Assembly (NCBI GenBank): GCA_030374765.1
Contig: JARGXX010000117.1
Coordinates: 1,528,112-1,592,111 of the forward strand
Direction of reading: 5' to 3'
Length of the DNA: 64,000 bases
From: Agarophyton chilense
Lineage: Eukaryota; Rhodophyta; Florideophyceae; Gracilariales; Gracilariaceae
Part shown: piece after piece, positions 17,494 to 64,000 of the stretch
Numbering within the stretch: the first letter of the stretch is position 1
Layout of the letters: each line of letters opens with the position of its first letter
Program-made: the position numbers and the translations under genes
The notes under the pieces: model-generated
Database searches by the model: none
Seen by the model: only the letters and a program-made list of their open reading frames with translations
What the model was told of the DNA's origin: nothing

Positions 17494-17494
17494 A

Positions 17495-41346: not shown

Positions 41347-41771
41347 CTATATATATTACAGGTTGTAAGTGTGGGCTGGCGCTTGGTAAAACGCAGTTGT
41401 CAGTAGCGCTTGGTAATTACATACACCAAGCGCCACGCGCTGCATTCGACGTATGTGCGATTTTGACCCCCTGGATGGAAAACGTTGTGCTGGAGAGCGC
41501 GTATGACACATTGGCACGCTCAAAAAATCGTGGCTAATTGCGCTCAGGCGCTTCGTTCGGGTAACGTAGCGCGCGACTTGCCAGATGTTGGGGCGCAGCA
41601 CTCATTTTTGCAATTTTTGCTTTTGAAAAAATCATAAATTTTACGCGCGCTGGGCTTTCTGCCAAATCCTGCGTTTGCACATGCTTTATTGTAACATTTT
41701 TGCTACACAACGTGGAGGCGTGCGTCGAGTGTGGCACTCAAAGGCGCTTGGTTTCAGCCACATCTCCGCTG
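41347..41771. repeat. 425-bp dispersed repeat, copy B
   Basis: This is a direct copy of 36777-37201 at an offset of 4,570 bp with no net indels. It abuts the RecQ C-terminal remnant. It is followed by unrelated sequence, not by the 185-bp repeats that flank copy A. Confidence 0.9.
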
Positions 41772-42203
41772 CACAGTCGAGCTGTGTTGTAAGCTGGATA
41801 ATGTGCGAAATTTTTATCAAAAGAAAGGGTTAGGGTATGCGTTTGCGCTTGGTTCTGTGGCGATTTCGTGGAGGCAGTTGGCACATTGTCAGGCGTTTTG
41901 TATGTGCGTTTTTGGGGTCGTGGACGCGGCTAAAAAAGGTGCGTTTGCGCTTGGTTCTAGGATGGTTTTCATATCCGGCAACACTGGGGGCCGATATTCG
42001 TTGGTATTGTCAAGTTCAATGTAGGTTGAGTGTGGTGAGTAGTAGGTCAGGCGAGTGCTGGCGCCACACTCTCAGCTAAAGAAGACGCGTGCAGTGCGTT
42101 TAGTGAGGTAGGGATGACGTATGCTTAACGATGCCAGGTAGGGTCTTATGACGTTAAGGTTTGTCCAACAGTGCCATCGCCACAAAGTAGCTATTGGTCA
42201 GGG

Positions 42204-42590
42204 CCTACGGGAGTTTACGTTTTCGTACAGGAAACCATTGTGTACGGGCTTTTACAGGTTTCAGGGGTTTAGGAGTTTAGGGGTTTTAGGGGAAGCTTTA
42301 CCCTACGGGAGTTTACGTTTTCGTACAGGAAACCATTGTGTACGGGCTTTTACAGGTTTCAGGGGTTTAGGAGTTTAGGGGTTTTAGGGGAAGCTTTACC
42401 TTTATGGGATTTTGAATTTACGGAGAGGAAAACATTGTGTAGGGGTTTTAGGGGTTTTACAGGTTCAGGGGTTCAGGGGTTCAGGGGGTTTAGGGGAAAC
42501 TTTACCTTTATGGGATTTTTTATTTACGGAGAGGAAAACATTGTTTAGGGGCTGGTGGGCTTTAGGGGTTTTAGGGGAAGCTTTGCGTTT
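42204..42590. repeat. Tandem ~80-105-bp G-rich repeats with telomere-like motifs
   Basis: There are four tandem units: 42204-42301, 42302-42400, 42401-42506 and 42507 to about 42587. The first two are nearly identical and the last two have a diverged 5' half. Each ends in a run of TTTAGGGG, TTTTAGGGG or TTCAGGGG followed by AAGCTTTACC or a similar sequence. The motif resembles plant and green-algal telomere repeats (TTTAGGG, TTTTAGGG). Similar motifs recur at 52911-52951. Confidence 0.8.
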
Positions 42591-43000
42591 ATTGGATTTT
42601 AGGGGTTTTAGGGGTCTAGAGTCGAGACGTCAAGTTCCAGTATAGTACGAATGCGTGGTGAACAGATTGTTTGAGGGTGTACTCGATATCTGCTGTGGTT
42701 GGATAAAGTTCTGTGTTGAGCGACCTGCATTCGATAAGTGTACTGGGCTTTATGTGTAGGACTGATATAGATTGTAGGTTGTTTCGTTACACTGTATTTT
42801 TGAGGCGGAGTTGGGGTATTTAGGGGCTGAGGTTGAGCTGGAGATAGAGTCGTTTGAATAACGCTTGTTGCTGGTTTGGGTGTAATGTAACGGTCGAATA
42901 TGGGGTGTTTGGCGTTATACTTAAGTAGAAAGAGGAGGAAATGTGGTTTTCTGTGGCAAGGAAGAGAGTTGAAAGCAAAATGGAGAAAGAAGAATGGGTG

Positions 43001-43006
43001 TTTATT
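43001..43006 (-). terminator. Candidate polyadenylation signal for the RecQ-element gene
   Basis: AATAAA on the minus strand lies about 28 bases after the stop codon of the 1,875-codon gene. Confidence 0.4.
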
Positions 43007-43033
43007 GTACCGGGTTGGAATCTAAAATCGTGC

Positions 43034-46000
43034 TTAAATGAGTGTTGTGGTTGACTTCCACCAAGCTGCAAGGCGTAGAATGTTGGGAACGGCAAAGTGG
43101 TTGTTGTGTGTTAACCAATCATGAAACATGGCGTCTATTTCAAGGTGGAGGGGTGAGGAATCTTGGGAGGATTGGGAAATGGAGTTGAACTTGGATTGCA
43201 TGCGGCCGTCAAAGAGGTGGAGTGCAAATTCGGAGCGAGTTTTGGAGCATGTTCGCCACAAGACCCATGCCAGTTGATAGAGCGAAATGAAGATGCAGTG
43301 TCTTGTTCCAAAAGTGTGCGGTTGAGAATGAGTTTTGAGTCCCTTGCAGAATCCGAGATGGCAACGGTAGCAGGTTCCTTGAGGTGATTTATCGAACCTG
43401 CAGTTGCGCGATATATGGTGCGGCGAAAAGCATCTGAAGCATCGTTGACGGGAATGGGGGCATGCATGAGTGTCTGTCAAGTGCACTTGCGTTTTTTCGT
43501 GCAGCAAGCATGGCACACAGAGAGGGGCAAGTCGGCGGGAGAGCTCCTCGAAGTGTGACACGATTTGTTGCGGTGTTTTTCGTTCCAAGGTGTAAAAGAA
43601 GGTGGCAGAGTGCGACTGAGATTGAGAAGGAGCGACAGTGGGCGATTGGGTCGCAGCGGATGGATACGTGGTTGTCAGCAGCGGCGATGGAGTGGAGGTG
43701 GGGGGTCGTGGTGGACGACTGGCGTGGGGTTTGGGGCTTTGTGTTGGGCCGCCGTTGGTGTTGGTGTTTTGATTGTTTAAGGATGTTCTGTTTGATTGAT
43801 TGGGACCGTTTTTTGGCGGCGTGGGCGTTTGTGGGGAAGCGCTGGGTGACGGTGAAATGGATTGGGCGTGCTGAGAGGCAGAAGGGGTAGCGGAAACGGA
43901 GCTTCGTTCAGGGGTGGGGGAGGGGGAGACAGCTGCGATGCTATTGCAAATATCGCAATTAAGAACCGAAGGAGAGAAGAGACAGATGCCTGGTTCTTTT
44001 CCGTCCATGTGGAAATAGAGGGCGTTCCTTCGACAAACAGATTTGCATTCGACCCAATGCTGCGCTTCCAACCAACGCTCCGTGGAAAGTGCTTGGTTGT
44101 ATATGCGATTGGGCTCCTCAAACGCATTTGTGTTGGAAGAGGACGAAGAAAGAGTTTCCGTGACGAGTTTGAAGTAGGGCTGGAAATAAATGGTGACGCA
44201 AGTGGATGGGTTTCCATCGCGGCCGGCCCTGCCGGCCTGTTGCGCGAGGTCGCAAAGACTCGCTACTCCACCAAAGTTGAAAACCAGGCGAACGTTGGGA
44301 ACGTCGATGCCCGTACCAAAAGAAGAGGTGCAAACCATGAAGAGAATGTGGTTGGTTGTGGGCGCGCTGGAAGAAGGCGGAGAGTTCCAAAGGGTGTGAG
44401 CCCGGCGTTTACGAACATCGGAGAGACCAGAATGGTACAGGAGAACCGTGACAGTAGTGGATTGTTTAAGGGCACCAAAAGAAGAACGCGAAGCGGAGAG
44501 AGCTTCATGGACAGCTTCGGCAGCCGGGCGTGTCAACGAGAATATAAGAACGCGAGCTAGGGTTGTGTCAGCCGACGAGTGAAGTAATCGAGCCACATGC
44601 TCTTGCATGATTGAGACGCCCAGCTGAAGCAGGTATCCAAACACATCCTGAAAGTGGCCATGAGCGGCGCGAAAGCGTGTGGCACGCGAAGTGCTGGGGG
44701 CTGAGCTTAGGTGATACACGACAAAAGAAATGTTGTTTCTTGCAGTCGAAGAAGCGTACACATGCGCGTTCGGGATGTGCAGCTGCGACAGAAGAAGGGG
44801 GCGGTCGCGCGGCGGCACTGTCGCGCTTAAAAGCACGCGAGGGATCTTTGTGGGAATATGGCCGAAGCAGTTGTGGAGGTTGGCCAAGCACGGGCGAAAG
44901 TGTTGCCATAAAAGAAACAAGTGACATTCATCGATGGCAATGCGGGCGAGGCGGTCGGCGGCGATCAGTCGCGTGGTGAACTCTGTAAAAGAAGGAAGAG
45001 AAAGTCTTTCAGCGGAAAAGATGTAAATGTCGGCAAAGGAGTGCGATCCGGGAGGGGTGGGTGTACGAGAAGCACGAAGGCCGAAGAGCTGAGCGCGCAG
45101 TTCGTATTCACTGAGCAAGGCTGTGAGAGGGGTGATGAGAACGGTGGAGTATTTGCCCTTTTCCATGAAGACGGGGAGCAGAAGAGATAGTGTTTTTCCA
45201 GATCCAGTCGGCTGGAGTAGTAGCATGTTGGAAAGCCTGTTGTACACGGCCGCTGTGTTCACAAATTGTTGGTGGGACTTGAATAAAGCGGAGTCGTTGG
45301 AAAGTGCCTCTCTTAGTGCTCGGAGCATTTCTGATGTAGTATGTTCGTAGGTCACAAGCGGTTGTTGTAAGAGAGAAGCTCCACCGCGCGGTATGGCGGC
45401 TGCCATAAAAGCAGGCGGATGTGGATTGAAAGGATGAGAGGCGGCCAGGTTTAGGTTGATTTGAGAATGGGGGATCGCAGAGCGGTCAGTGGGAGGGGAC
45501 GGGGTTGGCTGCGATGTATGGATGGAGCGCTTTGGTTCAGGTGTAGGTAGAACTGTGTCAGAAACCGGACGTTTTCTGTGGTGTTGTTGTTGTTGTTGTT
45601 GTTTGGTGAGGGGAGCATTAAGAAGAAGACCGAGATACTGGTGCCATTTGCTGGACCACTCGCGATATTTGGAAAGTTGAGAGTGCTGCAAACCGGATAT
45701 GTCATGTGGTGTACGAGCGTAAAGAAAAGCGGCGGTGTGCGCAGAGTGGCCCGCCTGGCCATGGGCAGTGGTCAATAGCTCTTCCAAGATGTGATCGGCT
45801 ACAGAAGATGCGGTGACATTGGAAACTGTGTTGGTCATTCCCACGGTGAAGTTTCTATAGTCGTTGAAGGATATCGGGAAACCGCGTTTGCTCAAGTGAG
45901 AGCTGATTATCGAGCGGATGGTGTTTGCGGCATAAGGAATTCCGCAGTTGGCGAACAGCATTTTCCAATGCATCTGGAAACAGTTTTCCCCGTGTAGGCG

Positions 46001-48661
46001 GCGGACGATATATGCTTCAAAAGGACGTATCAGAGTCAAGTACATGAGCAGAAGACGGGATGTTTGGGCATCGGGAAAGCGAGCAATCGGAGTGGCGGCC
46101 CCTTTGCTGTTTGGCGTTTTCATGTAACGGCAAATGAGGACAGGCGATTTGTCGATGAGCATGAGACAACGTTGAAAGTGTTGGTCGTTGTGGATACGGT
46201 ATGTCTCAATCTCTGTGCCGCGCGCAGGAGAGCCCGACGAAAGGTGTAGCGCAACCAACAGGCGTTCTTGGATTTTCTGTGCACATGAGAGCCACCTCGA
46301 CAACGCATGCGTGAACATATCGGTGCCCAAAATGTCGGTTGTGGGCAGTTGTGTGCGGGGAAAGGTACCGTTTTGCTTGCGTTGCGGAAGAAACGGAGTG
46401 TGGTCGGTGTTGGAGTTGTGGGGCATGGAAGACGTGAGACAAGTGAAAACGAAAGCCATGTTTTGTTCGATAAATGGGCGGTTGTTGAGGTTGGTAAGGA
46501 AAGAAAAGCCTGGGCTTTTGTTGAAGGAGTCGTCCTGAAGTGAGTGTAGCGCGTTTGTGAAACCGGTTGGCAGAGCGTGGCCAAGAAGCAGGTCGTTGTG
46601 AAGGGTATGTTGTATTTCTTTGTGTAGAGTTAAAACCAAAGAGCCGACTTCTGAGAGGGCGAGGTGAATGTCACGCACTATGCCGCAGGACGGGTGAACA
46701 TCACAATTGTGGAAAGAAACGAACATTTCCTCGCGAGAGGATATGGACATTGCAAGCGTGAGTGTCTTTCTGACAAACGAAAGGGCGTTGTTGGAATCAG
46801 CGTCGATTGCCGCGTCGATGGTACGCATGCGTTCTTGAACGTGAACTGGGCGTTCGGAAGCAGGGGTGGCAGGTTGCAACAGGGGAGAAGATTTGGAGAG
46901 CACGTGCAGTTCGTGTATGGCGCAGGCACAGATGCCATATTGAAGAGCGGCGAGGAGGTGCGTCACATCTGAGGCGGCTGCAAAACGAAAGGAGGTATTG
47001 TTGGGGTCGTGAGAAATGACCGTGTCGTAAGGCTCAGGCGTGCGGTCAGACGGCAAGGGGGCAGCGATAGGCGGGTTGGGGTCGGTGCTTATCACGCTTG
47101 CGCAAGCAATGAAGTTGCGAACGGAGAGGAGATCTAAAGACTGGTATGGCGCTAAAGATTGAAGCAAGAAGGGCTTGAGCGCGCTATGGACCGCTGGGCC
47201 ATGTTGGGTTGGAGGAAACGGGGCGGGGAGCTCACCAGAGGAAGACATGCGAATGGCATCCAACACGGAAGTAGTGTAGCAGTACATGAGGTCTGAGTCG
47301 GGTACGAGATGAGGGAGGTTTGCCCTTGTCCTGTGAGTAAACACAAGCAAACGGGAAATGTGTGAAGCGTAACGCTTGAGGGTTTCAGTGGAGACAGTTT
47401 TAAAAGCTGTGTCGGTGCGCTTGTTGAGGCGGTCCAAGAAAGCCAGGGAGGTCTTACTAACCAAAATGTTCACCTGAGAGAGGTAGTCGAAGATGTGGTG
47501 GGTGATGGTGCTTTCAGCGGATGTGGGCGTTGTGCCAGTTCTGGATAGTTGAGCCGCCACATCCAGATGAACATGAAGCGAGTGAAGAACGATGTCAAAC
47601 TTGGAAAAGGTGATGAAAGAATTCTTCTCCGAGTGGTGACGAAGCAAAGGGTCTGATTGCGAACAAGGAGCGCCGGTGGTGAACTTTTGTAAAAAGTGGT
47701 TAATGTGTTGAAGCGGGGGCTCGATGCCTTTGGCAGTCGTTGCCACTGAACGATGGGGTGGTTGGAGACAAACAGGCTGCGCCGGGGGGGTCTCAGGCCG
47801 TGCCGCAGGCGCCTGCGGAACCTGGAAAGTTTTGGACAAGCAGCCTATGGGTTGAGCATTGGTAACGGGGAATAAACGGCGACGAACGCCGCCGTACACT
47901 GTCTGCAAGGCAATACGGCCCGACGAGACGGTACGGTCAAGGTGCGGCTGGGCAACCGCAGGCGACATGTTGTGGCATTCGATCAGATGCGCTTGCAAAC
48001 GAACGGGGTCGAGGTAGCAGAATTTGCAGAGCGGGCACTGATAGCCATTGTGAATGGCAATGTGAGCCAGGGGCGTGAGGAACGTAGAGGGCCCGGACAC
48101 AAATTGAGCGTTGTGTTGGGGGCGATACTTTTGCCACACGGGGGCAACGGTAGAGTTGTTGCGCAAGGTGTGCACCTCGTGCAGGATTGCCATTGACATG
48201 GGACGTGCAATTTCCAAAGGGATGGAGTGCTGTTTGCGCAAGTGATGTTGGATTGCGCGGGCAGACGGCAGCCCACACTGGCAGTTGACGCACAACGGAA
48301 AGAACCCAATAGAATGAATACCCATATTCACAATGGTACCGAGTGCCATGATAAAAGAGGAAGAATCGTCGGCTGCATTTGCGTCGGTAACGGGTAAGTC
48401 GGAATGGGGTTGAGCATGGGCGTCACGCGCCACGGGTGGAGGCGGTGGGGGGAGCAGGGGATTAGGGGGAGTGGGCGGTGAGATGTTCACCGCAGCCCTC
48501 GGTGGGCTGTGCACCGAAGAGGGGATGAACACGGGCAAGCCATGTTCGCCGGCGGAGGATAAGCTGTTTTGCGACATAACTGAACGTGTAAGAGAGAGAA
48601 GAAGACGCTTGGGAGGATTGTTTTTGAAGACGCAAAGAAAGACACACACAAACAAACACAA
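43034..48661 (-). CDS. C2H2 / tyrosine-recombinase-like / RecQ helicase fusion protein
   Basis: This is an intact frame of 1,875 codons; Met29 is an equally plausible start. Two fingers of identical spacing (C124-x2-C127-x12-H140-x4-H145 and C209-x2-C212-x12-H225-x4-H230) resemble OrsD-type (DUF3505) fingers. Residues ~790-1010 carry a tyrosine-recombinase pattern. R814 lies in SPARGTEI and K848 in YMKTP. R936 lies in NDYR, with Asn where HxxR has His. H972 and Y981 lie in GHSAHTAAFLY, with the canonical nine-residue step. After a Q/P-rich linker comes a RecQ-type SF2 helicase: PTGSGKT 1151-1157, DECH 1244-1247, SAT 1279-1281 and QQAGRAGRDG 1474-1483. A low-complexity linker leads to a CCHC knuckle (C1741, C1744, H1749, C1754). 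The helicase resembles telomere-linked RecQ helicases of fungi. I infer that it recombines and unwinds element DNA in the nucleus. Confidence 0.85.
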   Translation of the reverse strand: MCLFVCVFLCVFKNNPPKRLLLSLTRSVMSQNSLSSAGEHGLPVFIPSSVHSPPRAAVNISPPTPPNPLLPPPPPPVARDAHAQPHSDLPVTDANAADDSSSFIMALGTIVNMGIHSIGFFPLCVNCQCGLPSARAIQHHLRKQHSIPLEIARPMSMAILHEVHTLRNNSTVAPVWQKYRPQHNAQFVSGPSTFLTPLAHIAIHNGYQCPLCKFCYLDPVRLQAHLIECHNMSPAVAQPHLDRTVSSGRIALQTVYGGVRRRLFPVTNAQPIGCLSKTFQVPQAPAARPETPPAQPVCLQPPHRSVATTAKGIEPPLQHINHFLQKFTTGAPCSQSDPLLRHHSEKNSFITFSKFDIVLHSLHVHLDVAAQLSRTGTTPTSAESTITHHIFDYLSQVNILVSKTSLAFLDRLNKRTDTAFKTVSTETLKRYASHISRLLVFTHRTRANLPHLVPDSDLMYCYTTSVLDAIRMSSSGELPAPFPPTQHGPAVHSALKPFLLQSLAPYQSLDLLSVRNFIACASVISTDPNPPIAAPLPSDRTPEPYDTVISHDPNNTSFRFAAASDVTHLLAALQYGICACAIHELHVLSKSSPLLQPATPASERPVHVQERMRTIDAAIDADSNNALSFVRKTLTLAMSISSREEMFVSFHNCDVHPSCGIVRDIHLALSEVGSLVLTLHKEIQHTLHNDLLLGHALPTGFTNALHSLQDDSFNKSPGFSFLTNLNNRPFIEQNMAFVFTCLTSSMPHNSNTDHTPFLPQRKQNGTFPRTQLPTTDILGTDMFTHALSRWLSCAQKIQERLLVALHLSSGSPARGTEIETYRIHNDQHFQRCLMLIDKSPVLICRYMKTPNSKGAATPIARFPDAQTSRLLLMYLTLIRPFEAYIVRRLHGENCFQMHWKMLFANCGIPYAANTIRSIISSHLSKRGFPISFNDYRNFTVGMTNTVSNVTASSVADHILEELLTTAHGQAGHSAHTAAFLYARTPHDISGLQHSQLSKYREWSSKWHQYLGLLLNAPLTKQQQQQQHHRKRPVSDTVLPTPEPKRSIHTSQPTPSPPTDRSAIPHSQINLNLAASHPFNPHPPAFMAAAIPRGGASLLQQPLVTYEHTTSEMLRALREALSNDSALFKSHQQFVNTAAVYNRLSNMLLLQPTGSGKTLSLLLPVFMEKGKYSTVLITPLTALLSEYELRAQLFGLRASRTPTPPGSHSFADIYIFSAERLSLPSFTEFTTRLIAADRLARIAIDECHLFLLWQHFRPCLANLHNCFGHIPTKIPRVLLSATVPPRDRPLLLSQLHIPNAHVYASSTARNNISFVVYHLSSAPSTSRATRFRAAHGHFQDVFGYLLQLGVSIMQEHVARLLHSSADTTLARVLIFSLTRPAAEAVHEALSASRSSFGALKQSTTVTVLLYHSGLSDVRKRRAHTLWNSPPSSSAPTTNHILFMVCTSSFGTGIDVPNVRLVFNFGGVASLCDLAQQAGRAGRDGNPSTCVTIYFQPYFKLVTETLSSSSSNTNAFEEPNRIYNQALSTERWLEAQHWVECKSVCRRNALYFHMDGKEPGICLFSPSVLNCDICNSIAAVSPSPTPERSSVSATPSASQHAQSISPSPSASPQTPTPPKNGPNQSNRTSLNNQNTNTNGGPTQSPKPHASRPPRPPTSTPSPLLTTTYPSAATQSPTVAPSQSQSHSATFFYTLERKTPQQIVSHFEELSRRLAPLCVPCLLHEKTQVHLTDTHACPHSRQRCFRCFSPHHISRNCRFDKSPQGTCYRCHLGFCKGLKTHSQPHTFGTRHCIFISLYQLAWVLWRTCSKTRSEFALHLFDGRMQSKFNSISQSSQDSSPLHLEIDAMFHDWLTHNNHFAVPNILRLAAWWKSTTTLI

Positions 48662-49546: not shown

Positions 49547-51277
49547 CTAATCTACAAGATTCACATGAAAGGTCTGTGTTTGTGGTTTTGGAACCCTGGG
49601 CCAATGAGCGTAGTCGTTTCCATAGTCTATTAGCACTTCTTCTTCTCGCTCGATGGTTCGGGTGGCCACTATTGTGATAAGGTGGTAGTCTTGGATTCCT
49701 GACTTTGAGTTTTTCAAAGTAGACGAAAGGCGCGCTACTACATTTGGTGTGCGAGGGTTTGGGAGTACCTTGTCCCGTAAGGCCTGAATGTCGAGGTCCT
49801 CTGGGCGGTATTGGGCATCATTGATGATTCCGCCAACACAGAACGGGGCAGGCGTGATCCACATGGAGTGGGTTCCACGGTCTCCCGGGGTGGGCAGTCT
49901 GACAAAGTCCGGGCCTGTCACTCGGATTTCCATGGAAGTAGAGTTGAAGCGCTCCACGGTGACGGCGAGCAAACCGTTGGCATACGAAGACTGTGTGGCG
50001 GAGCGTTTGGAGAGGTCGTGGTAGACGAGGGTTCCATAAAAGTAGCACACTGTGTCGCCTTCATTAAACTGGCGTGCGGCAAAGACACCGTCTCCCGCCA
50101 AGGGGTGTCGGATGTCGGACTTTTTGGTATACACTCCATGGGCATACCCTTCTATGGCCAGTAACGTATCCGGATCGATCTGAGTGAGAAGGCCCTGTTT
50201 CTCTCGCGGCCATTCATGCACCGGTTTACTGCGGCAAACGGCTGCAAACTCACGGTCTTTCCACAAGTTGCAGAGAAAGGAAGCGAGCGGCGCAGGAAAA
50301 ATTTGGTACTGTGGCAGACCGGGAGGCGCGGTCCAAAGGTATTTCGATCGCAGGTCCGTGTTCGGTATTGAGCGAACTACGCGATTGAACTTGGTGATGA
50401 GATGGTGCGGCACTTCAATGTCGGTGCTGTTCTGTAAAACGGTTTTGATAAAGTGAACGACAGCATTGTGTTTTGCGTGAGCGTAACACACTGCGTCTTT
50501 CTCGCACCCCAAAAAGCGTCTGTGACCTGGGAGCTCCATGCACGCCAAAGCGGTGGAACCCGTTCCGGCAAATAAATCCACCACCATGTCGCCAGGCTGA
50601 GAATAGCGGCTTATGAGTTCCTTGAGTAGAGCACGACTGTTCTGCTCCGGGCGTACTTTTTCAGTGACGGCGTTGTGATTGTTGGTGACAGAATGCAGGC
50701 GATTCCAACGCAGGGTCTCGCCAGCGGCTAGTCCCGGCACGTTATCAATCACGTTCTTGTAAGCCGGGTAGCGAGAAGGAACGTAGTTGTAGTTAACGAG
50801 GTTTACGCGAGCCAGGTTTTCATCGTGAGTGAGCCCCGTTTTGATGCCGTGAATGGCGTACTCGGTGATGGGCAACGGCGACGTTCGCAGCCCGCGGTGG
50901 CTCCCAGTAGGATGGGAGGCGGCGCGGACGAAAACCAACGGCACAGGGTCCACCTTGAATAGCGCAGTTTGGGACTCGGAAATGCTTTTGAAGCACGACA
51001 ACCACGGCCTGAACTGGCGAATGGAGCAAAAGAGAATAAAGTGGCCGCCAGGGCACAACAGCTCGCCAATAACCTGCGCCGTGCGCTTCATATCGTCTTG
51101 GGAAATGGCGTCGTGGTTGCTGTTGTGGCGGCCAGCTAAGGAACGAATGTTGTAAGGCGGGTCGGTGAGGACCAGTTGCACTGCTCCGACTGGAGATGAG
51201 GCGGTAGTTCGTTTGATAATATCCACCTGTACGAATTCTTTGAAATCGACACCGTAGAGGCGAATATACTTTTCCAT
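49547..51277 (-). CDS. DNA amino-methyltransferase (beta class) fused to SET domain
   Basis: This is an intact frame of 576 codons. Residues ~1-275 are an N6-adenine/N4-cytosine DNA methyltransferase. The catalytic DPPY (39-42) precedes the SAM-binding FAGTG (236-240, within VVDLFAGTGSTALACMELPG). That order defines the beta class, typical of bacterial type II/III modification enzymes (N6_N4_Mtase), unlike the MT-A70 enzymes usual in eukaryotes. Residues ~380-557 form a SET lysine methyltransferase domain: GDGVFAARQF near 395, INDAQY 485-490 and EVLIDYGNDY 547-556. I see no post-SET cysteines. It would place DNA methyl marks, and possibly histone marks, on the same target. It is separated by only 84 bp from the upstream gene in the same orientation. 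The bacterial-like half implies horizontal acquisition. Confidence 0.88.
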   Translation of the reverse strand: MEKYIRLYGVDFKEFVQVDIIKRTTASSPVGAVQLVLTDPPYNIRSLAGRHNSNHDAISQDDMKRTAQVIGELLCPGGHFILFCSIRQFRPWLSCFKSISESQTALFKVDPVPLVFVRAASHPTGSHRGLRTSPLPITEYAIHGIKTGLTHDENLARVNLVNYNYVPSRYPAYKNVIDNVPGLAAGETLRWNRLHSVTNNHNAVTEKVRPEQNSRALLKELISRYSQPGDMVVDLFAGTGSTALACMELPGHRRFLGCEKDAVCYAHAKHNAVVHFIKTVLQNSTDIEVPHHLITKFNRVVRSIPNTDLRSKYLWTAPPGLPQYQIFPAPLASFLCNLWKDREFAAVCRSKPVHEWPREKQGLLTQIDPDTLLAIEGYAHGVYTKKSDIRHPLAGDGVFAARQFNEGDTVCYFYGTLVYHDLSKRSATQSSYANGLLAVTVERFNSTSMEIRVTGPDFVRLPTPGDRGTHSMWITPAPFCVGGIINDAQYRPEDLDIQALRDKVLPNPRTPNVVARLSSTLKNSKSGIQDYHLITIVATRTIEREEEVLIDYGNDYAHWPRVPKPQTQTFHVNLVD

Positions 51278-54105: not shown

Positions 54106-54732
54106 TTCACTCAATGTGAGCAAACTCGTTTCTCTTCTACCAGGCGCCGTACCAAGGCCGTAGACGCTGTATAGAGCCGATTCCCATGCCTGTGTCTCCC
54201 TCTCACGGCTTTATACCGGCGGAAACGAAGGTTATTGAACCTGTTGGGGCTGAACGCCTTTTCTAGCGTCGCCCAACCTTACACTACCACAGGCGAATAC
54301 TGTAATTTGAATGGTGAACGAGCTCGCGTAAAGGGTGCCGACAGACATGTTTGTGGAAAGACATGTTTTGGTGCACTTCCGAGAATTAGTAGCATCTGTA
54401 TAGAGAGGAGAGTGGTGAGAAAGTTTGGTGTTTTAGAGTACTTGGTTGAAATTGAAAAGTTGAATGTATATTAGTTGTGACACGGTGCAGTGAAGAAGAA
54501 GCGTTGTGGGCGAGTGAAGGTGTTTTGTGAAACATCATTAGGCTTTCGGTTTTGCAATGGGGCTTGAAATGGGTCTACAGAGGCGTATGCGAGAGACGAG
54601 GGGTGTGGTGAGAGTTTAGGAGTGTGGCGCAAATGTAGGGAAGGCGTGTGGGCGAAGGCGAAAAACGGGGTGTTGTGGGGCCCAGGGGGTGTTTTTGGAT
54701 GTGGGCAGACGTAGTCAAAAAGAGCGATTGGG

Positions 54733-54875
54733 ATTGCCTGCAGGCAATAAATTTCAACTGCGAATTACGGCTCATAATTTGCACCCCGATTGTTGATTTG
54801 CATTATTATTTCGCACTTTCGGGGTGCAAATTATGAGCCGTAATTCGCAGTTGACCAAAAGTGCCCGCAGGCAAT
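54733..54875. repeat. Long inverted repeat H3
   Basis: Same structure and length as H2. Confidence 0.9.
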
Positions 54876-55497
54876 TTCACTCAATGTGAGCAAACTCGTT
54901 TCTCTTCTACCAGGCGCCGTACCAAGGCGTAGACGCTGTATAGAGCCGATTCCCATGCCTGTGTCTCCCTCTCACGGCTTTATACCGGCGAAACGAAGGT
55001 TATTGAACCTGTTGGGGCTGAACGCCTTTTCTAGCGTCGCCCAACCTTACACTACCACAGGCGAATACTGTCGAATTTGAATGGTGAACGAGCTCGCGTA
55101 AAGGGTGCCGACAGACATGTTTGTGGAAAGACATGTTTTGGTGCACTTCCGAGAATTAGTAGCATCTGTATAGAGAGGAGAGTGGTGAGAAAGTTTGGTG
55201 TTTTAGAGTACTTGGTTGAAATTGAAAAGTTGAATGTATATTAGGTGTGACACGGTGCAGTGGAGAAGAAGCGCTGTGCGCGAGTGAAGCGGTTTTGTGA
55301 AACATCATTAGGCTTTCGGTTTTGCAATGGGGCTTGAAATGGGTCTACAGAGGCGTATGCGAGAGACGAGGGGTGTGGTGAGAGTTTAGGAGTGTGGCGC
55401 AAATGTAGGGAGAGGCGTGTGGGCGAAGGCGAAACGGGGGTGTGGGGGCCCAGGGGGTGTTTTTTGATGTGGGCAGACGTAGTCAAAAGGGGATGGG

Positions 55498-55638
55498 ATT
55501 GCCTGCAGGCAATATTTCAACTGCGAATTACGGCTCATAATTTGCACCCCGATTGTTGATTTGCATTATTATTTCGCACTTTCGGGGTGCAAATTATGAG
55601 CCGTAATTCGCAGTTGACCAAAAGTGCCCGCAGGCAAT
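55498..55638. repeat. Long inverted repeat H4
   Basis: Same structure, two bases shorter next to the left palindrome (AATATTTC instead of AATAAATTTC). Confidence 0.9.
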
Positions 55639-56265
55639 TTCACTCAATGTGAGCAAACTCGTTTCTCTTCTACCAGGCGCCGTACCAAGGCCATAGACGC
55701 TGTATAGAGCCGATTCCCATGCCTGTGTCTCCCTCTAACGGCTTTATACCGGCGGAAACGAAGGTTATTGAACCTGTTGGGGCTGAACGCCTTTTCTAGC
55801 GTCGCCCAACCTTACACTACCGCAGGCGAATACTGTGGAATTTGAATGGTGAACGAGCTCGCGTAAGGGTGCCGACAGACATGTTTGTGGAAAGACATGT
55901 TTTGGTGCACTTCCGAGAATTAGTAGCATCTGTATAGAGAGGAGAGTGGTGAGAAAGTTTGGTGTTTTAGAGTACTTGGTTGAAATTGAAAAGTTGAATG
56001 TAATAGTAGGTGTGACACGGTGCAGTGGAGAAGAAGCGCTGTGCGCGAGTGAAGCGGTTTGTGAAACATCATTAGGCTTTCGGTTTTGCAATGGGGCTTG
56101 AAATGGGTCTACAGAGGCGTATGCGAGAGACGAGGGGTGTGGTGAGAGTTTAGGAGTGTGGCGCAAATGTAGGGAGCGCTGTGGGCGAAGGCGAAAAACG
56201 GGGTGTTGGGGGCCCAGGGGGGTGTTTTTGGATGTGGGCAGACGTAGTCAAAAAGGGGGATTGGG

Positions 56266-56407
56266 ATTGCCTGCAGGCAATAAATTTCAACTGCGAATTA
56301 CGGCTCATAATTTGCACCCCGATTGTTGATTTGCATTATTATTTCGCACTTTCGGGGTGCAAATTATGAGCCGTAATTCGCAGTTGACCAAAGTGCCCGC
56401 AGGCAAT
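56266..56407. repeat. Long inverted repeat H5
   Basis: Same structure, one base shorter (ACCAAAGTG). It is followed not by a spacer but by the gene-bearing segment. Confidence 0.9.
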
Positions 56408-56847
56408 TTGCCACACACAACCCCCCTAAAAATTATAAAATTTGGTGTCTGTGCAGCGGTTTTTTTGGAACGGATCGCGATTGCTGTGACGCGTGTCACG
56501 CGTCGTTGGGGTTCAGGTTGCCACTACACAACCACTAGGAGCCCTTTTTAGTTTTTCGCGGAAAGGACGGAGTCGAAGTACACCCGTTTACACCGTTTTC
56601 CCCCCCCGCCGTCACATTCCTCCCTTTCCCGAACTGCAGCCTCTGTCTTGTTTTGTAACGGATCAAGCGGGCGCCATCAAAGTTCGCATCAAGTCTGCAC
56701 TTTTACTTGAATCATCTCCCCGCGGGCCTGAGTTTCGGATCTGCCGTATTTGGCTTTGTGTTCCGCCTTCATTCGCCCGTGTCATAGTTTTTGTTGTCAC
56801 GCTCTTCTGCGCGCATCTCCCCGGTTCATATTGTGTGTATTGCAATG
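56408..56847. other. Upstream region of the ParB/dioxygenase gene
   Basis: This lies between H5 and the first Met of the following gene. It includes CCCCCCTAAAAATT just after H5, which is the complement of the TTTTAGGGG-type motif seen elsewhere in this region. No gene is assigned. Confidence 0.4.
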
Positions 56848-59800
56848 CCATCGCGTGGAAAACATCAAAAGATGAAAGCAGCCGACGTCGTGTTTCTTTT
56901 GGCGAAAGGCGAAGGGGGAAACCGCCGGCGCGTCGGAACGGCTGTGTTGATGCCTGGTAGGAAGGAGGGGAATTGTCCAGGGATATGCATGGATCTAGCC
57001 TAAAGAGCTTTGAGGCGGAAGGTGAGGATTTGGTGAAAGTTCGCAGTGTTAAGATCCTGCCGGGGTTTGACGACATTAGGTACCCGTACCGATTTGGTGG
57101 TGTGGAAGAACCGCCTGCAACACTGGGTGGGGTGTTACCGAATTCTTTTTATTCGTGGGACCTCGGTATGATGGAGGCGATGGAAACAACAGGGGAGGTG
57201 GTTGAGGTGGATTCAGATGAATCCGCTGATGCGGTCGGAAAGAGGAGGAGAAAGTCCCCACCCCCGTCGAAGGGTACTCCCGACGTACAACGGCGTCCAC
57301 CTACGACGCCCCGAACGGGAAGTCGTAAGACGAGGTCCCAGAGCCGCCAAGGGCGCGCATCGCAGCGCTCGAATGCATCTGGTTCGACTGCAACTGGTGC
57401 TGGGGCAACTGTTGCCACCGTTTCTCCTGGTACAATTCGACGCACTGGGCGACCTCGTCTGAGGTCTCAACCAACGCCGCGCAGGGGCACATCCGTTTCA
57501 CGCGCAGTAACGCCACGCCCTCGTACGCCACCGGGCGGAACGATTGAAGTGGGTACTTCGGCCGCCAAGGCAGTGGAGGTGGATGAGGACGTCATTTTCA
57601 CGGGTATGAGGTCGGGCCCGTCGAACACCCGGTCATTGTCACAAGCGGTGGAGCCTCCGAAACAGGCTGTTGCGATCCCCACCGATAGCAAGATTGAGCT
57701 GAACCACTATAGGCAGGTGAATGCTACGGTGGATATCGGCAGAATTCGCTACGGGAGCATCAAGTGCGGGCATTGAATGGGCAGCACAGGGAGAATTTGA
57801 AGGTTATGATGGAGCAGCAAGGTGTTTTGGGAGCGGTTGGGCGGGTGAGCGTTGCAATCGTGCTCGGCGGCAGATCAGTGGATGAGGTTCTTCAAGGCAA
57901 TTCAATTACCTGTGAGTGTCTGTTGGTGGATGGGCTTCATCGTTTGGTGGTGTACCAAGACCTGAGGAACACGTCCCAGAGGTGGAAAAGCATGACCCAA
58001 GTGCTGGACGTCGTTCTGTGGTTGCGACCGGACGGGAAGGACCTCACAAGGAAGGAGCGGTTGAGCATCGGTTGTAAGCTGAACATCATGGCAAGCAACG
58101 TGTTGGCGATGTCGTTTGCGGACCGCGTGCACACCACCGTGTCGTTCATAATGGCGTCAGTGTTGGATGACAAAGTGAAGGTCAAGTCACTGACGTCATA
58201 TGCGGTGGCAGTAGCGATGCAAGAGTTTATGCTACTCGGCACATTGGAAACGACGCAACTTCGGCGCTACGCCGACATTGCCCTTGCTCTTGTAAGGAGC
58301 CCGGAGTTGCTGAGCAACTTTGAGAAGGTGTGCAAAGAGGCGCCGAAGTTGGGTCTGTCGCATTTGTCGGACGACCGGTTGTACACACTCGATGAAGGCG
58401 GTTTTTTGTTTTGCGTGGAGTGTGTGAAGGCTTTACTGGGTACCCGCGGGGGTTTCGAAGGGGGGAGAAGGGCCGGTTCGAGGATATGCGGTATTACTTT
58501 TTCAAGTTTGCGCTGCAGGTGTACTTCTTTTGCCGACAAGTGGCAGAGAAGAAGGACGTGACGGTTGCCGCCGTGCTCGACACCCAAATGAGCATTGGCG
58601 GAGTGGAAACGTCCACCGTGCGGAACTTCCTCGTCATGATTGTGTCGAAGATGGAGAACTCCGGGAGCGACCGGCAGTGGGAAAGGAAGCTGGAGCGCAA
58701 AATGAAGGAAGTGACGGACAGGATGGAGGGGTTGTTTGAAGTAGGGAGTGAGGAGAGGAGTAGGGACAGGGTCTCCAGCGAGCCCTTCGGGGCAGCATCA
58801 AAGTCGGAGCGCTCCGGGACGGGCGAAGGTGAAGACTGTGGCGCCGTCGCCGGAGGTGGCTGTGTTGGACTTGGACGACGACATGAACTACAACGAGTCG
58901 CGTCCAAGGGTGAGCACGCGTAAGGGGAAAGGAAAAAGAACTGTTCCAAGGGTGGAAGAGGTGCCGGTTGGGCGTGCAAGGGGTGTGAAGCGAAAAGCTC
59001 CTGACACGAGACTGTCTCCACCCAGTCGCCGGTCGAAGAGAACCCAACTGGCACAGGAAAGGGAGTTGTTGCAGCGGATGAAGCAGTTGCGGAGAGAAAC
59101 TCTGTTTGAACTGTTGGGGAACCTGGGAATCCGCGCCGAGAACTTCTCAGACGGCGAGGGTAATGAGGCATTCGTGACGGACGATGCAGTGGGTGAAGGT
59201 GTGCAGCAGGGTGGGGAGGGGTCGATGAGAGATGCTGACATTGAGCGCCCATTTGACGACTCTAACCCTCCCGATGGACCGCCGCAATGGATGAGGCTGC
59301 CAGAAACTTACAAAGGGGCTTCATCGCCGGCATGGTGTAATTGGGCAAATGTGCCGCCGAGCATGTTGCCAAAGGATGTTAACGTGATTGAACACGTGCA
59401 TCCTTGGCTGGACACCATCCATATGGCGTCCAAGCACCGAGCTGAATGCCTGACGGCGGAAGAGCTGAAGCTGGTCCACCATCTGGTGTTTTGGCACGCC
59501 GCGAAGGAGAAGCATGCGGCGCTGGAATCTACCAAGGTTCCGGTGTTTGGACAAGTGCTACCGACGAGCGGCAATCCGAAAAGTGAAGAGGAGCGCCTGT
59601 GGATGGCAGCGATGGAGCGGGATGAGTTGGCGTTGGAGTTCTTCGGTGAAAAGCGCAGGGAGCTGCAACACCAAGGGTTCTGCATTTTGGAATCGTTTGC
59701 AACCGATGAGGGTGCGCCGAAATGTTTGAATGGTGGGGATGTGTCTGGGAAAATGCTGCAATGGTTTGAAGACAACTTCAAGCAGCAGCCCGACTTGCGG

Positions 59801-60738
59801 ATTGAATCGAACCGCATAAGATGGAACCCGATTATCAACGCCGGATCGGCGGTGGATGGGAAGGATCGGAATGTAGGAGTTGGAAGGTTTATGACGACCC
59901 GAGCCGGGATGGTGGATGCAGTAGAACGCGACCCGCAATTGGAGTGGCTTGTTCGGCGTCGGGCATTGTTGGATGCGCGGCTGGGCCAGATCTTGTGTGC
60001 GTTGCGATTGAACAACAACCTCAGCAACAGCATCAAGATGCATGGGCCGGTGACGGGAGGCAGAGTTTTGTGCACGAGCTTGGAATGCCGGCGGCAAGCT
60101 CTTCACACCGACTTTCGAGGGCTGACGCACGAAGAAAGGGAGGCCGGAGGGAACCCGGGTACTTTATGATGGTTTCTGGGCAGTTTTCGTTCCCCATATG
60201 GGTGTGCGAAGATTCGCACCGCACGGTATTCGGAAGCTTGCAGCGCCTGAAGCAGCTTTCGAAGAGCATGGAGGTGAAAAAGTTGCGAGTGCCGCCGTTC
60301 TCTGTTTTCATTGGCAGGGGAGACGTGTTCCACGCTGGAGCTTCTTACGAAGACGGGTACATGGAGCGTGAGCTGGTCCGCTACCACATGTACATGGTGC
60401 CTGACGGATATCAGCTCCCTGATGCAGTTCACCGGCAACAGGGATTCACTCCGCGTTTGTTTGTGTCCAATGATGACGTGGACCTACAAGCCGAAGAGGA
60501 ATATGAAGGACTGGGGGAACAAGGGACCAAGAATAACTCCGGAGAGGACGATGCGCAGTCGCCGATAGAAGCAGACGAGATAGAAGCGATGGAGGTGGCC
60601 AACGACGAATCGGATTTAGACGCGGAGATTTTGCAATTGGTGGGAGGGGACAACAACGGCTATGCAGGGGCTGATAGCGATGGCATTCATGAGTCTGACT
60701 GGGTCGTCAGTGATGAATCTGAAGCCAATAACGCATGA
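56848..60738 (+). pseudogene. ParB-like / 2-oxoglutarate-Fe(II) dioxygenase protein, frame-disrupted
   Basis: This reads as one ~1,290-codon protein in successive frames: 56848-~57000, to ~57770, to ~58460, to ~58790, to ~60150, then 60738. Most joins look like single-base losses near G or C runs; the one at 58745-58830 needs a gain. A ParB-fold-like segment spans about 57740-57960, with NGQHR (57776-57790) and VDGLHRL (57926-57946). Basic, Ser/Pro-rich linkers follow. The C-terminal part carries 2OG-Fe(II) dioxygenase signatures: HxD in LHTDF (H 60104-60106, D 60110-60112), the distal His in GDVFHAG (60331-60333) and Arg in RYHMY (60379-60381). The tail is acidic. Possible roles are oxidation of a DNA base (TET/JBP- or AlkB-like) or another substrate. 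The breaks may be decay or sequencing error. Confidence 0.6.
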
Positions 60739-61322: not shown

Positions 61323-61373
61323 ACGCGCAATGGCACCCTAGCGCGTGATGTTTACCATGTGCTGTGAAGGCTA

Positions 61374-61472
61374 TGTGTTTTAGAATACTTGGTTGAAGAC
61401 GTAATATGGCGTGTGGGGGCCCAGGGGGGTGTTTTAGGATGTGGGCAGACGTAGTCAAAAAGGGGGATTGGG
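61374..61472. repeat. Partial array spacer with internal deletion
   Basis: It starts at a segment matching the middle of the spacers (GTTTTAGAATACTTGGTTGAA). It jumps after a few bases to the G-rich 3' segment (GGCGTGTGGGGGCCCAGG), then leads into H6. This shows that the gene-bearing interval retains a spacer 3' end. Confidence 0.7.
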
Positions 61473-61615
61473 ATTGCCTGCAGGCAATAAATTTCAACTG
61501 CGAATTACGGCTCATAATTTGCACCCCGATTGTTGATTTGCATTATTATTTCGCACTTTCGGGGTGCAAATTATGAGCCGTAATTCGCAGTTGACCAAAA
61601 GTGCCCGCAGGCAAT
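61473..61615. repeat. Long inverted repeat H6
   Basis: Same 143-bp structure as H2, at the downstream edge of the gene-bearing interval. Confidence 0.9.
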
Positions 61616-62242
61616 TTCACTCAATGTGAGCAAACTCGTTTCTCTTCTACCAGGCGCCGTACCAAGGCCATAGACGCTGTATAGAGCCGATTCCCATGCC
61701 TGTGTCTCCCTCTACGGCTTTATACCGGCGGAAACGAAGGTTATTGAACCTGTTGGGGCTGAACGCCTTTTCTAGCGTCGCCCACCTTACACTACCACAG
61801 GCGAATACTGTCGAATGTGAAAGGTGAACGAGCTCGCGTAAAGGGTGCCGACAGACATGTTTGTGGAAAGACATGTTTTGGTGCACTTCCGAGAATTAGT
61901 AGCATCTGTATAGAGAGGAGAGTGGTGAGAAGTTTGGTGTTTTACAGTACTTGGTTGAAATTGAAAAGTTGAATGTATATTAGTTGTTGACATGGTACAG
62001 TGGAGAAGAAGCGCTGTGCGCGAGTGAAGGGGTTTTGTGAAACATCATTAGGTTTTGGTTTTGGAATGGGGCTTGAAATGGGTCTACAGAGGCGTATGCG
62101 AGAGACGAGGGGTGTGGTGAGAGTTTAGGAGTGTTGGCGCAAATGTAGGGAGAGGCGTGTGGGCGAAGGCGAAAAACGGGGTGTTGGGGGCCCAGGGGGG
62201 TGTTTTTGGATGTGGGCAGACGTAGTCAAAAAGGGGATTGGG
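61616..62242. repeat. Array spacer, fifth complete copy
   Basis: A 627-bp non-coding spacer highly similar to those at 53333-56265. Confidence 0.9.
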
Positions 62243-62385
62243 ATTGCCTGCAGGCAATAAATTTCAACTGCGAATTACGGCTCATAATTTGCACCCCGAT
62301 TGTTGATTTGCATTATTATTTCGCACTTTCGGGGTGCAAATTATGAGCCGTAATTCGCAGTTGACCAAAAGTGCCCGCAGGCAAT
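62243..62385. repeat. Long inverted repeat H7 (array end)
   Basis: This is the last hairpin. Its flanks extend the inversion (TTGGGATTGCC on the left, GGCAATCCCAA on the right, about 62239-62389), which suggests the intact element end includes TTGGG. Unrelated sequence follows. Confidence 0.9.
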
Positions 62386-64000
62386 CCCAAACATTAAAAA
62401 ATAAAAATATTAAATTATCATAGAGGGAAACCGAAAGTGCAAAACGCGACACGAGGCCACGAGGCCACGAGTCCACGAGGCCACGACGCCACGACGACTC
62501 CGCGTCACGACTCGAGGCATTGTACAGCAAGGCCCGGTGGGTGATGGCGCTTGTTGTGTGCAATGGTGTGCGCTGTATACAGTGTCGCTGTTTGTATAGT
62601 TTGGGACTTCGAGGGCATGTACGAGATGCGATGGGCATTGTACATTTTTTCGGACAAGCGCTGCCAAAAGCGCATGTGTATCGGTGGCAGCGTGACTCCC
62701 ATTCAGAATTTTTAGCGTTGTTCGTTTGTGCGTATGTGTGTGTGGACTGCTTCCGCGTCGCGCCCGAATGGTATGGGGCGTCACGTGACAAAAAAGCGCG
62801 CTTGCGACGCACGTTTTTACATCATCTGAGAAGCACGCGTGTGCGCGTGGTGGAGCCGAACGACGGCGATGTGATTGCTATTTGCAATATACAAACTGAA
62901 CATTCTATCAGAATGTCGGTGTCAAATTCTGTAGTGGATTAAAACTTGCAGCCGGCTTTGTGCGCAGCGGTGCCGTGGCACTAGGCCCACCCCCACCGGA
63001 GTGGAAGGGAGGGTTGGGCACAGAGGGGTTTAGCCTTGCAAATTGTATTGGGGGTATCGAAGAGCCGGGATTTTAGGCGGGAGGAGTAATGAGGAGGGCT
63101 TGCAAACATGCCATAGTTCGGACAGCGACAAGCAGACATAATGTGCCAGTGCTTTAAGTTGCGACAAGAAGCGAGACGTTTTGTCGCGTATTTTGGCCGA
63201 GCTGGCGCGCACGTCACACAAACAAACAAACAGCATAGACATGGTAGACACATGCGCGAGAGCGCCATGGACGCGCGGCGGTGACTGTAATAAAGGGCAA
63301 CGGTTCCAGCGCCCGCTGTGAATGACGTTGTCGGCGAGCGCTCTCTTTGGCGTGCATACAACAGGCGTTGGCTCACGCGGCTCACTCGGACGCGCACGCG
63401 ACACATCCATGTCACGCTGTGTGCAAGACGGGCACGTCTTGTAGGGGCGTTGTGAGCTATAAGAAGTGAGGCGACGGCGATCCGTGACAAGAAAACAACG
63501 GGCACAGGTTGCAGTTTTAGTATAGCAGCTTCACAGACAAGACCCATCGACATCCTTGGATTGCATGCTGTGGGGTGGTTTTCGAGGGTGTAAGTCTATG
63601 ATCATGCAGCCCACGCAGAGAATCACGCCACTTGGGACACACGCATCGTCCCAGCCAAGGCCGGCCGCGCAGGCAACGACGGGTTGGCGCCGCCGGTGAC
63701 GGCAGGCGCGAAAGAGCCGTGGCACGGAGACGCTGCACATCTCATTGAGGCACAGCGGTGGGGCTTGAACCCATGACGAGGAAGTGGAGCGTAAAATACT
63801 TTGGATAATGTAATCGACGCGATCATCATAGGCCTGTCACTCAAGCAGCGTGGTCTCTCAAGTCAAGCGTTCCGGCACCGTACTTTGTGAGGTTGTGTGG
63901 CGCAACTTTCATCACAAGGGCAATCGAACCGGCACCGCCGGGTTGTGCACCAGGGTAAACGCGTGAGGTGCGACCGCGCACAGTGCAACGAGGTACGTAC
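62386..64000. other. Terminal region, no firm genes
   Basis: It contains a 9-bp minisatellite (CCACGAGGC variants) at about 62449-62497 and a 140-codon unidentified plus-strand frame at 62520-62942 with no recognised motif. Otherwise it has low-quality overlapping frames. No tRNA or rRNA could be supported. Confidence 0.45.

Follow-up and report, generated by a model that had tools for sequence, protein, structure and literature searches.

A probable telomere-associated mobile element of a red alga and its putative self-marking cassette, shared with a Plavaka transposon

The window analyzed here, a stretch of 64,000 nucleotides of Agarophyton chilense DNA, forms the right-hand end of a contig of 1.59 Mb and carries a copy of a subtelomeric element that recurs in the genome; we call this element E, and it is about 23.2 kb long when complete. 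The copy starts with S, the constant end of E (41344..42203, plus strand; core CTATATATATTACAGG), which is the end joined to older sequence, as seen from the junctions read and from genome matches. An older S start in the same orientation, truncated after 425 bp, lies at 36776..37201 (plus strand; 96% identity to 41346-41770). S is followed within E by G-rich repeats (42204..42619, plus strand; tandem repeats of 98/106 bp and of 8 bp) that resemble degenerate copies of the genome's telomere repeat TTTAGGGG/TTTTAGGGG, present as (TTTAGGGG)n in the contigs C32 and C76. Three long ORFs are found in E: an OrsD-YR-RecQ protein of 1,875 aa (43034..48661, minus strand), a methyltransferase-SET protein of 1,065 aa on the same strand (C-terminal part 49547..51277, N-terminal part 51362..52744) and a ParB/2OG-dioxygenase-like protein on the plus strand (56787..60738), whose gene is frame-broken here. 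Repeat analysis placed a palindrome or inverted-repeat array between the two divergent genes (53190..56407) and a second part of it at 61473..62385, beyond which the telomere-side part of E (62386..64000) is ended by the contig end; this last part is repeated in C76, C32, C92 and C33, and a complete far end lies at C32:36380.

An earlier note on this DNA had described these genes and inverted repeats as a mobile-looking subtelomeric element extending from 41347 to 62389 and bracketed by G-rich repeats. Genes and repeats are present as described, and the impression of a mobile-looking subtelomeric element was borne out by the repetition of E at many contig ends. The unit runs past the proposed right limit, reaching at least 64000, and the G-rich repeats lie solely on the left, since the window's right edge coincides with the contig end. 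Strand G/C skew is continuous along the whole E unit, independent of gene direction, and long blocks are 97-99% identical between E-bearing contigs. Telomere repeats were found at 7 of 15 contig ends sampled and in part at an eighth. No RT is among the families that Pfam found in the three proteins of E. The pooled pN/pS values of the E genes, which come from few distinct sequences, are 0.30, 0.31 and 0.15, with one two-copy estimate of 0.55; the genes are under weak purifying selection.

What had been taken for a tightly linked unknown protein is one half of the methyltransferase-SET protein. An in-frame stop divides the 1,065-aa protein of the window into the two ORFs given above, and this is the only split copy among those fetched; all six other copies encode a single protein of 1,065 aa. 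The N-terminal part belongs to no known family. The C-terminal part contains an N6_N4_Mtase domain (PF01555, 62.7 bits vs a cut-off of 26.7), with DPPY in the window and a DPPY/DPPF motif ([DNS]PP[YF]) in 6/6 aligned proteins, for which DpnA and CcrM are the nearest solved structures. It also contains a SET domain (PF00856, 26.2 bits vs a cut-off of 22.4), and an alignment profile gave short matches to KMT5A/EZH2. Because of the DPPY motif and the DpnA/CcrM relatives, 6mA is a more likely predicted product than 4mC. The only named relative of the protein that we found comes from the red alga Chondrus crispus.

The ParB/2OG gene appears in the window as several overlapping ORFs. Other copies that cover the gene have a single ORF of 1,297 aa in four cases out of five (C92, C76, C32 and C106), and the open frame is shorter in C33; introns were ruled out since the other copies are one open frame. 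The DGxHR motif of ParB is invariant in 3/3 (D363, G364, H366 and R367), and in a Foldseek search with the ParB part, based on a weak model, the best 24 of 45 matches were ParB, Noc, KorB or sulfiredoxin (top E-value 7.7e-4). For the 2OG assignment of the earlier note, the candidate motif HxD...H...R is there and invariant in 3/3 (H1088, D1090, H1164 and R1180), but database profile searches gave no match to the domain, and AlphaFold did not predict a double-stranded beta-helix fold. Pfam had no match at all for the ParB-2OG protein P0005, and no TET/JBP match was obtained for P0005, P0014 or the Plavaka-type protein. PDB profile searches with the ParB-2OG protein and with the YR region returned nothing relevant, and the AlphaFold models of the YR region and of the ParB-2OG protein P0014 are poor (pLDDT of 35-37). 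In the 770-bp units of inverted repeats, which lie at 53.1-56.4 and 61.4-62.4 kb, a 16-bp palindrome occurs 14 times (7 times exactly and 7 times with 2 mismatches) vs 0.04 expected. A generic palindrome scan of the window allowing loops of up to 4 bases found none, because the arms in E are about 29 bases apart. Palindrome arrays occur both in E and in the Plavaka carrier described below, where the palindrome is 12 bp long, and are candidate ParB sites.

In the 1,875-aa ORF, Pfam identified OrsD, DEAD and Helicase_C, and RecQ models match too. The proposed YR domain keeps its catalytic residues R, K, R, H and Y in 3/3 aligned proteins, with 9 residues from H to Y, but received no support from Pfam, PDB profile search or Foldseek. 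The HxxR histidine is replaced in all three aligned proteins (by N, N and S). This OrsD-YR-RecQ protein would be the mobility or replication protein of E. Subtelomeric RecQ genes occur in fungi, and the fungal OrsD-RecQ protein P0011 (Pisolithus) has OrsD, a YR-like domain and RecQ in the same order as in E, although its identity to the E protein is 24% across 20% of the query.

Near-full-length matches to S (41346-41645) number at least 42 on 27 contigs, and all 42 starts listed, among which those of the short contigs C32 and C76 are not counted, point toward the nearest contig end, at a median distance of 18.7 kb. What S is joined to is either other sequence of the subtelomeres or a truncated E copy. 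We read 49 junctions, among them those of all the 42 listed starts but C90:10452-10750; 39 are distinct (about 35 after merging near-identical pairs), and 36 of these 39 have YCT. Ten distinct breakpoints fall inside older E copies, where the uninterrupted sequence reads YC in 10/10 and YCT in 7/10, a count that omits 3 of 15 element-matching junction rows (two partial 78% matches and one at E's own far end). Plain tandem duplication was rejected as the origin of the E copies, as the breakpoints vary between them. Subtelomeric methyltransferase pieces total 36, of which 6 are of unknown contig extent; the telomere-pointing orientation holds for 25 of the other 30, and the 5 misoriented pieces are a stop-containing copy inside C4 and those on the contigs C32, C76, C87 and C89, which are 44-60 kb long. 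Identical junctions occur on different contigs (e.g. C98/C1, C129/C128, C92/C1 and C106/C95), so copying between chromosome ends certainly takes place too. The target duplication that the earlier note had suggested looking for was not found, joining being visible on one side only. With its constant attached end, variable telomere-side loss and single orientation E behaves as a HeT-A-like element, and the pattern agrees with attachment, from one side, to chromosome ends that erode, as in HeT-A or Terminons.

The methyltransferase-SET and ParB-2OG pair, separated by a palindrome array as in E, is also found inside an 18.8-kb TIR-bounded Plavaka transposon, in both copies read. Its transposase was identified by PF18759 (80.9 bits vs a cut-off of 26.3, E-value 1.3e-22), a family with at least 123 matches in this genome vs none in 14 control genomes. 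Plavaka lies 2.6-5.2 kb from the methyltransferase gene, in convergent orientation, in 36 of 40 interior vs 1 of 36 subtelomeric cases; no Plavaka was seen up to 10 kb from the remaining 4 of the 40 interior genes. The ParB-2OG partner was examined at 2 of the 40 interior methyltransferase copies. The carrier has a 23-bp TIR at 96% and boundaries common to the two copies, one of which (C105) is without about 770 bp of the palindrome array, and no target duplication was recognized at either. Its termini, ACGTC..GACGT, are unlike the TGT..ACA or CATCA..TGATG given in excerpts of PMC12730594.

By tblastn, E copies on six contigs carry YR-RecQ and methyltransferase-SET in 6/6 and ParB-2OG in 5/6 (the sixth fetched in part). 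The genes noted earlier thus do occur together in E, but their linkage is not exclusive to one element: when the refuting condition of the earlier note is applied, the pair recurs at unrelated loci, in a different element type from which YR-RecQ is absent (0/2). A single element with four genes was rejected on this ground. With YR-RecQ absent from the interior carriers, the genes are more aptly described as one engine, YR-RecQ, accompanied by a two-protein cassette, and since the pair recurs in the Plavaka transposon this cassette is portable, being carried by two unrelated mobile engines, E and Plavaka.

With some reserve, we consider E to be probably a mobile element of giant size, associated with telomeres and provided with a self-marking cassette, joined by S at YC(T) and eroding on the telomere side. 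The fixed end S would join chromosome ends, including eroded older E copies, at YC(T), and the other side would then be lost to differing degrees, giving head-to-tail stacks toward the telomere. The methyltransferase-SET and ParB-2OG genes would form the cassette, transcribed divergently around the palindrome array. The ParB domain could load on the palindromes like ParB/Noc on parS and spread along E carrying the oxygenase, with the methyltransferase marking the DNA of E and the SET domain its nucleosomes. E might thereby fix its own DNA and chromatin state, and so escape host silencing or distinguish self from host. The anatomy, copy number, junction pattern, orientation, weak purifying selection and Plavaka reuse of the cassette are directly supported; we infer all that the proteins do biochemically, which enzyme joins E and what purpose it serves, and its writing or oxidizing of DNA marks is predicted from sequence. 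It is tempting, if rather speculative, to extend this to nuclear selfish elements that use bacterial-type ParB/parS logic, in which a ParB-oxygenase would spread from palindromes, one enzyme would write both DNA and histone marks, and the cassette could be swapped between a transposon and an element that attaches to telomeres and lives on chromosome ends subject to erosion.

The same junctions could have arisen in a Crypton-like manner, which we regard as possible but doubtful: YR would excise E as a circle (joined ends GAGAG-CCT-ATATATATTACAGG) and recombine it at a target YCT, and the insertion would be two-sided, with the distal target half later lost with the chromosome end. The YR-like domain with its conserved R, K, R, H and Y is in keeping with this, as is the core YCT common to the E end and the target, since Cryptons and their targets have terminal repeats of 4 or 6 bp in common (PMC3212892). 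CCT occurs both at S and behind the far end, and the sole far end that runs into S reads GAGAG-CCT-S. However, the second half of a split target follows none of the seven complete far ends, which continue into a related end S' in 6 cases and into S in 1; at least 50 S starts stand against at least 7 complete far ends among the matches listed; and no distal half of the copy that was interrupted follows on the telomere side in C76 (matches of at least 1.2 kb) or in C32 (fetched portion). Rather unlikely, in our view, is retro-attachment in trans, by which a minus-strand transcript of E ending ...TATATAG[G/A] would pair with a chromosome 3' end YCT and be copied by a neighboring telomere-associated RT, HeT-A- or Terminon-like. 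An RT ORF (PF00078, E-value 3.8e-7) does sit between telomere repeats in C76, and of the 32 matches listed for a 64-bp piece of it 31 lie in head-to-tail series of about 3.06 kb on 5 contigs. A 67-bp piece in the far end of E is 82-84% identical to this RT element, truncation falls on the would-be 5' end side, and the G/C skew spanning the whole unit whatever the gene direction also favors a transcript. Yet it would be unusual for a template to reach 23 kb and to have one of its genes on the opposite strand, S has no poly(A) or telomere-complementary tail, and the RT element itself attaches at the telomere repeat, not at YCT.

The common junctions and the long 97-99% identical blocks could also point to a subtelomeric block that is not mobile itself, comparable to yeast Y', and that only recombination or break-induced replication has carried from one end to another. 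We find this improbable: about 35 differing junctions share the E start base and the YCT core, whereas ordinary recombination ignores fixed points. That E is what remains of a large virus or linear plasmid integrated at chromosome ends is very improbable. Its large intronless ORFs, phage-like methyltransferase and ParB-like domain recall such an origin, but PHROG matches are limited to the methyltransferase and helicase domains, and viral contigs contained no relative of ParB-2OG or of the whole methyltransferase-SET protein (P0006), an alignment search giving short methyltransferase stretches of 22-51% identity. A telomere-attaching element with a self-marking cassette is the reading that we prefer.

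Transposons with epigenetic enzymes are already known, and our literature search found no description of a methyltransferase-SET and ParB-2OG fusion pair. If our reading is true, a cassette of two genes, a fused DNA and histone methyltransferase and a ParB-oxygenase, arranged around palindrome arrays and carried by two engines, would give genomic parasites a new means of managing their chromatin. Whether parasites write the 6mA (or 4mC) of a red alga thereby becomes testable. E also enlarges the set of telomere-attaching elements by one that has no RT itself, while telomere repeats and RT arrays are present at contig ends of its genome.

HeT-A and TART have a fixed centromere-side end, telomere-side erosion, head-to-tail stacks and a strand composition bias, and E is like them in all four. 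E is far larger, however, and without RT, and sampled contig ends are often simple TTTAGGGG repeats. Both of these Drosophila elements are listed in a review (PMC5537684). Terminons, or telomere-associated Penelope-like elements, are described in passages of PMC6431247 as giant, telomeric, head-to-tail, mostly truncated and with many accessory ORFs, as E is; unlike them E has no RT, although an RT element adjoins it, and S joins at YCT in place of their ribozyme and telomere-complementary repeats. With Cryptons and other YR elements, as portrayed in portions of PMC3212892, E shares a YR-like domain, the lack of TIR and a short common junction core, but its RecQ and OrsD are fused, it spans 23 kb and two-sided insertion is not seen. 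The interior carrier resembles the multi-ORF giant Plavaka repeats of Amoebidium, where YR genes have red-algal relatives (extracts of PMC11244446), and the giant EnSpm families of Chondrus, of 16-20 kb with 4-5 ORFs (cited in PMC6431247), to which it may be related; the relevant passages of these two sources say nothing of a pair such as methyltransferase-SET and ParB-2OG. Oomycete HarbingerS and MuDR elements carry a SET histone methyltransferase, as the cassette does, but unlike it theirs is not described as fused to a DNA methyltransferase in the passages of PMC12730594 that cite them. A parallel to the cassette's mode of life is offered by TET/JBP DNA transposons of fungi, where the mark enzyme rides unrelated lineages including Plavaka and has moved between them, with escape from silencing as the proposed role of the cargo (Kojima 2025, excerpts of PMC12730594). 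E and its Plavaka counterpart likewise place an epigenetic-mark enzyme gene in unrelated transposon lineages. In the fungal case described there it is one 5mC-oxidizing enzyme, whereas here it is a two-gene cassette of predicted write/oxidize type with a palindrome array, and one of its carriers is a telomeric YR-RecQ element.

The element that starts at 41344 in the window, termed E here, very likely recurs at subtelomeres, its copies sharing a fixed start and a single direction. Its left end is a constant sequence, S, and two stretches of the window, 42.3-56.4 and 53-64 kb, are collinear in contigs C33, C92, C76, C32, C34 and C106 at about 97-99% identity. Within the assembly (79.8 Mb, 135 contigs) we counted at least 50 starts of S, at least 42 among the matches listed and 8 more in C117, C33, C32 and C76. 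The 42 listed starts all point toward the nearest contig end, at a median distance of 18.7 kb and a maximum of 92.8 kb. The last base of contig C117 is the end of the window (G000:C117:1528112-1592111). Arrays of (T3-4AGGGG)n form 7 of 15 contig ends sampled, and an eighth, that of C32, consists partly of this repeat. The G/C skew per 2 kb runs from about -0.11 to +0.12 up to 42 kb of the window and from +0.16 to +0.44 over the remainder, and the same shift was seen in other E copies.

The sequence preceding E holds other features. An rve (integrase core) ORF followed by a chromodomain-like ORF, the latter just below the Pfam cut-off, lies at 3026-4839, an order as in a Ty3/gypsy-type retroelement. 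Three tandem copies of a 5,598-bp unit occupy 6336-22001 (99% identical over the reported 300-bp stretch), the unit carrying an FMO-like ORF of 352 aa and another ORF of 174 aa with no Pfam match, and a ferric-reductase/NADPH-oxidase-like ORF of 853 aa is found on the minus strand at 25174-27735.

Reading 49 junctions of S with older sequence gave 39 distinct ones by their 24 flanking bases; since four pairs among these differ by 1-2 bases or have a common breakpoint, about 35 are independent. The core where S meets its target is CCT in 23 of the 39, TCT in 13, ACT in 2 and TTT in 1. At 10 distinct breakpoints within older E copies the uninterrupted sequence reads YC in every case and YCT in 7. 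The complete far end of E occurs at least seven times, and an eighth far end is cut off at TCT and joined to S. With both ends, S and the complete far end, identified, the complete unit measures about 23.2 kb. S follows one of the seven complete far ends; the other six are followed by S', a diverged form of S (87% across 90 bp; L091, L092, L094, L090; C32:4474), which suggests a second element family related to E.

We consider it probable that E attaches one-sidedly to chromosome ends. Attachment to eroding ends would leave copies that begin at a fixed start, lack varying amounts of their telomere-side part, share one orientation and stack head to tail. S junctions that different contigs have in common show that copying between chromosome ends also happens. 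Beyond the last S of C76 and C32 come telomere repeats and, after them, a reverse-transcriptase ORF (RVT_1, E 3.8e-7; L014:403-2028, between telomere repeats). No endonuclease domain was found with this ORF, which we take to belong to an endonuclease-deficient Penelope-like element. A 64-bp piece of the element occurs at least 32 times in the genome, at a spacing of about 3.06 kb in C87 (11), C89 (8), C32 (6), C63 (4) and C1 (2), plus once in C76, and a 67-bp piece at the far end of E is 82-84% identical to this RT element. In L014 a long hairpin that looks perfect, about 84 nt (about 4170-4290), sits beside a telomere-repeat scrap, directly upstream of one of the S starts of C76.

The first protein of E, P0001 (1,875 aa), carries OrsD, DEAD and Helicase_C domains, and RecQ models also match. 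The region between OrsD and RecQ is common to P0011 from Pisolithus and P0012, a JGI protein, and its R, K, R, H and Y residues are invariant in all three sequences. The distance from H to Y is 9 residues, as in XerD and Cre, and the HxxR histidine is replaced (N, N, S). This motif-based tyrosine-recombinase (YR) call was confirmed neither by Pfam nor by a PDB profile search or Foldseek. P0006 (1,065 aa) combines a DPPY methyltransferase domain, whose closest solved structures are DpnA and CcrM, with a SET domain, each over the Pfam cut-off. No Pfam family matches P0005, the ParB/2OG-dioxygenase-like protein (1,297 aa), at E<=1. For its relative P0014 a weak AlphaFold model gave ParB, Noc, KorB and sulfiredoxin as Foldseek hits 1-24 of 45, and the DGxHR and HxD...H...R motifs are invariant in 3/3 ParB-2OG sequences.

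Among the E copies read, the methyltransferase-SET gene is a single ORF in 6/6 others, and ParB-2OG has 1,297 aa in four of the five others covering the gene. YR-RecQ is full length in 5/7, the window's included, a count in which the C92 copy lies only partly inside the stretch read and C106 was not recovered as one ORF. Pooled pN/pS was 0.30 for YR-RecQ (5 copies), 0.31 for methyltransferase-SET (6 copies; 0.55 from two copies only) and 0.15 for ParB-2OG (4 copies, 3 identical), pointing weakly but consistently to maintenance of all three proteins.

The methyltransferase-SET gene is very likely part of a cassette common to E and Plavaka transposons. Its 76 matches in the genome comprise 36 subtelomeric pieces that match the window's gene at 90-100% identity and 40 other genes, mostly interior, at 44-47%. 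Of these 40, 36 have a Plavaka gene no more than 10 kb away, always convergent and at 2.6-5.2 kb, and four have none; 1/36 subtelomeric pieces has such a neighbour, at 9.3 kb, with about 3.4% per locus expected by chance. Reading of two interior copies, those of C117 and C105, placed the methyltransferase-SET gene together with a divergent ParB-2OG gene (38% identity to P0005) inside one element that is bounded by 23-bp TIRs and encodes a Plavaka transposase; neither copy has YR-RecQ. The C117 copy measures 18,778 bp with a ParB-2OG ORF of 1,228 aa; the ParB-2OG ORF of C105 is shorter. ParB-2OG, present at both of the interior genes examined for it, 2 of the 40, is likely a further part of the cassette. 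Two more minus-strand ORFs with no Pfam match (410 and 385 aa; L027:5397-8154) sit between the transposase and methyltransferase-SET genes.

In E and in the Plavaka element alike, the spacer that separates the divergently transcribed pair contains inverted arms tipped with paired palindromes. The E palindrome, ATTGCCTGCAGGCAAT, has 14 sites at <=2 mismatches (0.04 expected), four of them in a second stretch past the ParB gene; that of the Plavaka element, TGTCGGCCGACA, has 14 at <=1 mismatch (0.01 expected). The arrays are alike in layout and unlike in sequence, and about 770 bp of the array are missing from the C105 copy. The ParB domain may load at these palindromes; that the elements mark themselves with their own enzymes is a guess from the domains.

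Outside this genome, searches scoring about 8,000 candidates per query found four relatives of P0006, one of them a Chondrus crispus protein, three of P0001 and one of P0005. P0007 (59% identity to P0006) and P0014 (47% to P0005) may sit together, since each is recorded on the same 4 contigs, of which the largest measures 20,528 bp. In the parts of PMC12730594, PMC6431247 and PMC11244446 drawn on here, the contents of the Chondrus EnSpm ORFs aside, the methyltransferase-SET/ParB-2OG pair is not mentioned. The same parts offer several points of comparison: TET/JBP genes occur in 11 fungal transposon lineages, Plavaka included, and SET genes are cited in oomycete transposons (PMC12730594); Terminons are described, and Chondrus EnSpm families of 16-20 kb with 4-5 ORFs cited, in PMC6431247; and the giant Plavaka repeats of Amoebidium carry YR genes related to some in red algae (PMC11244446).
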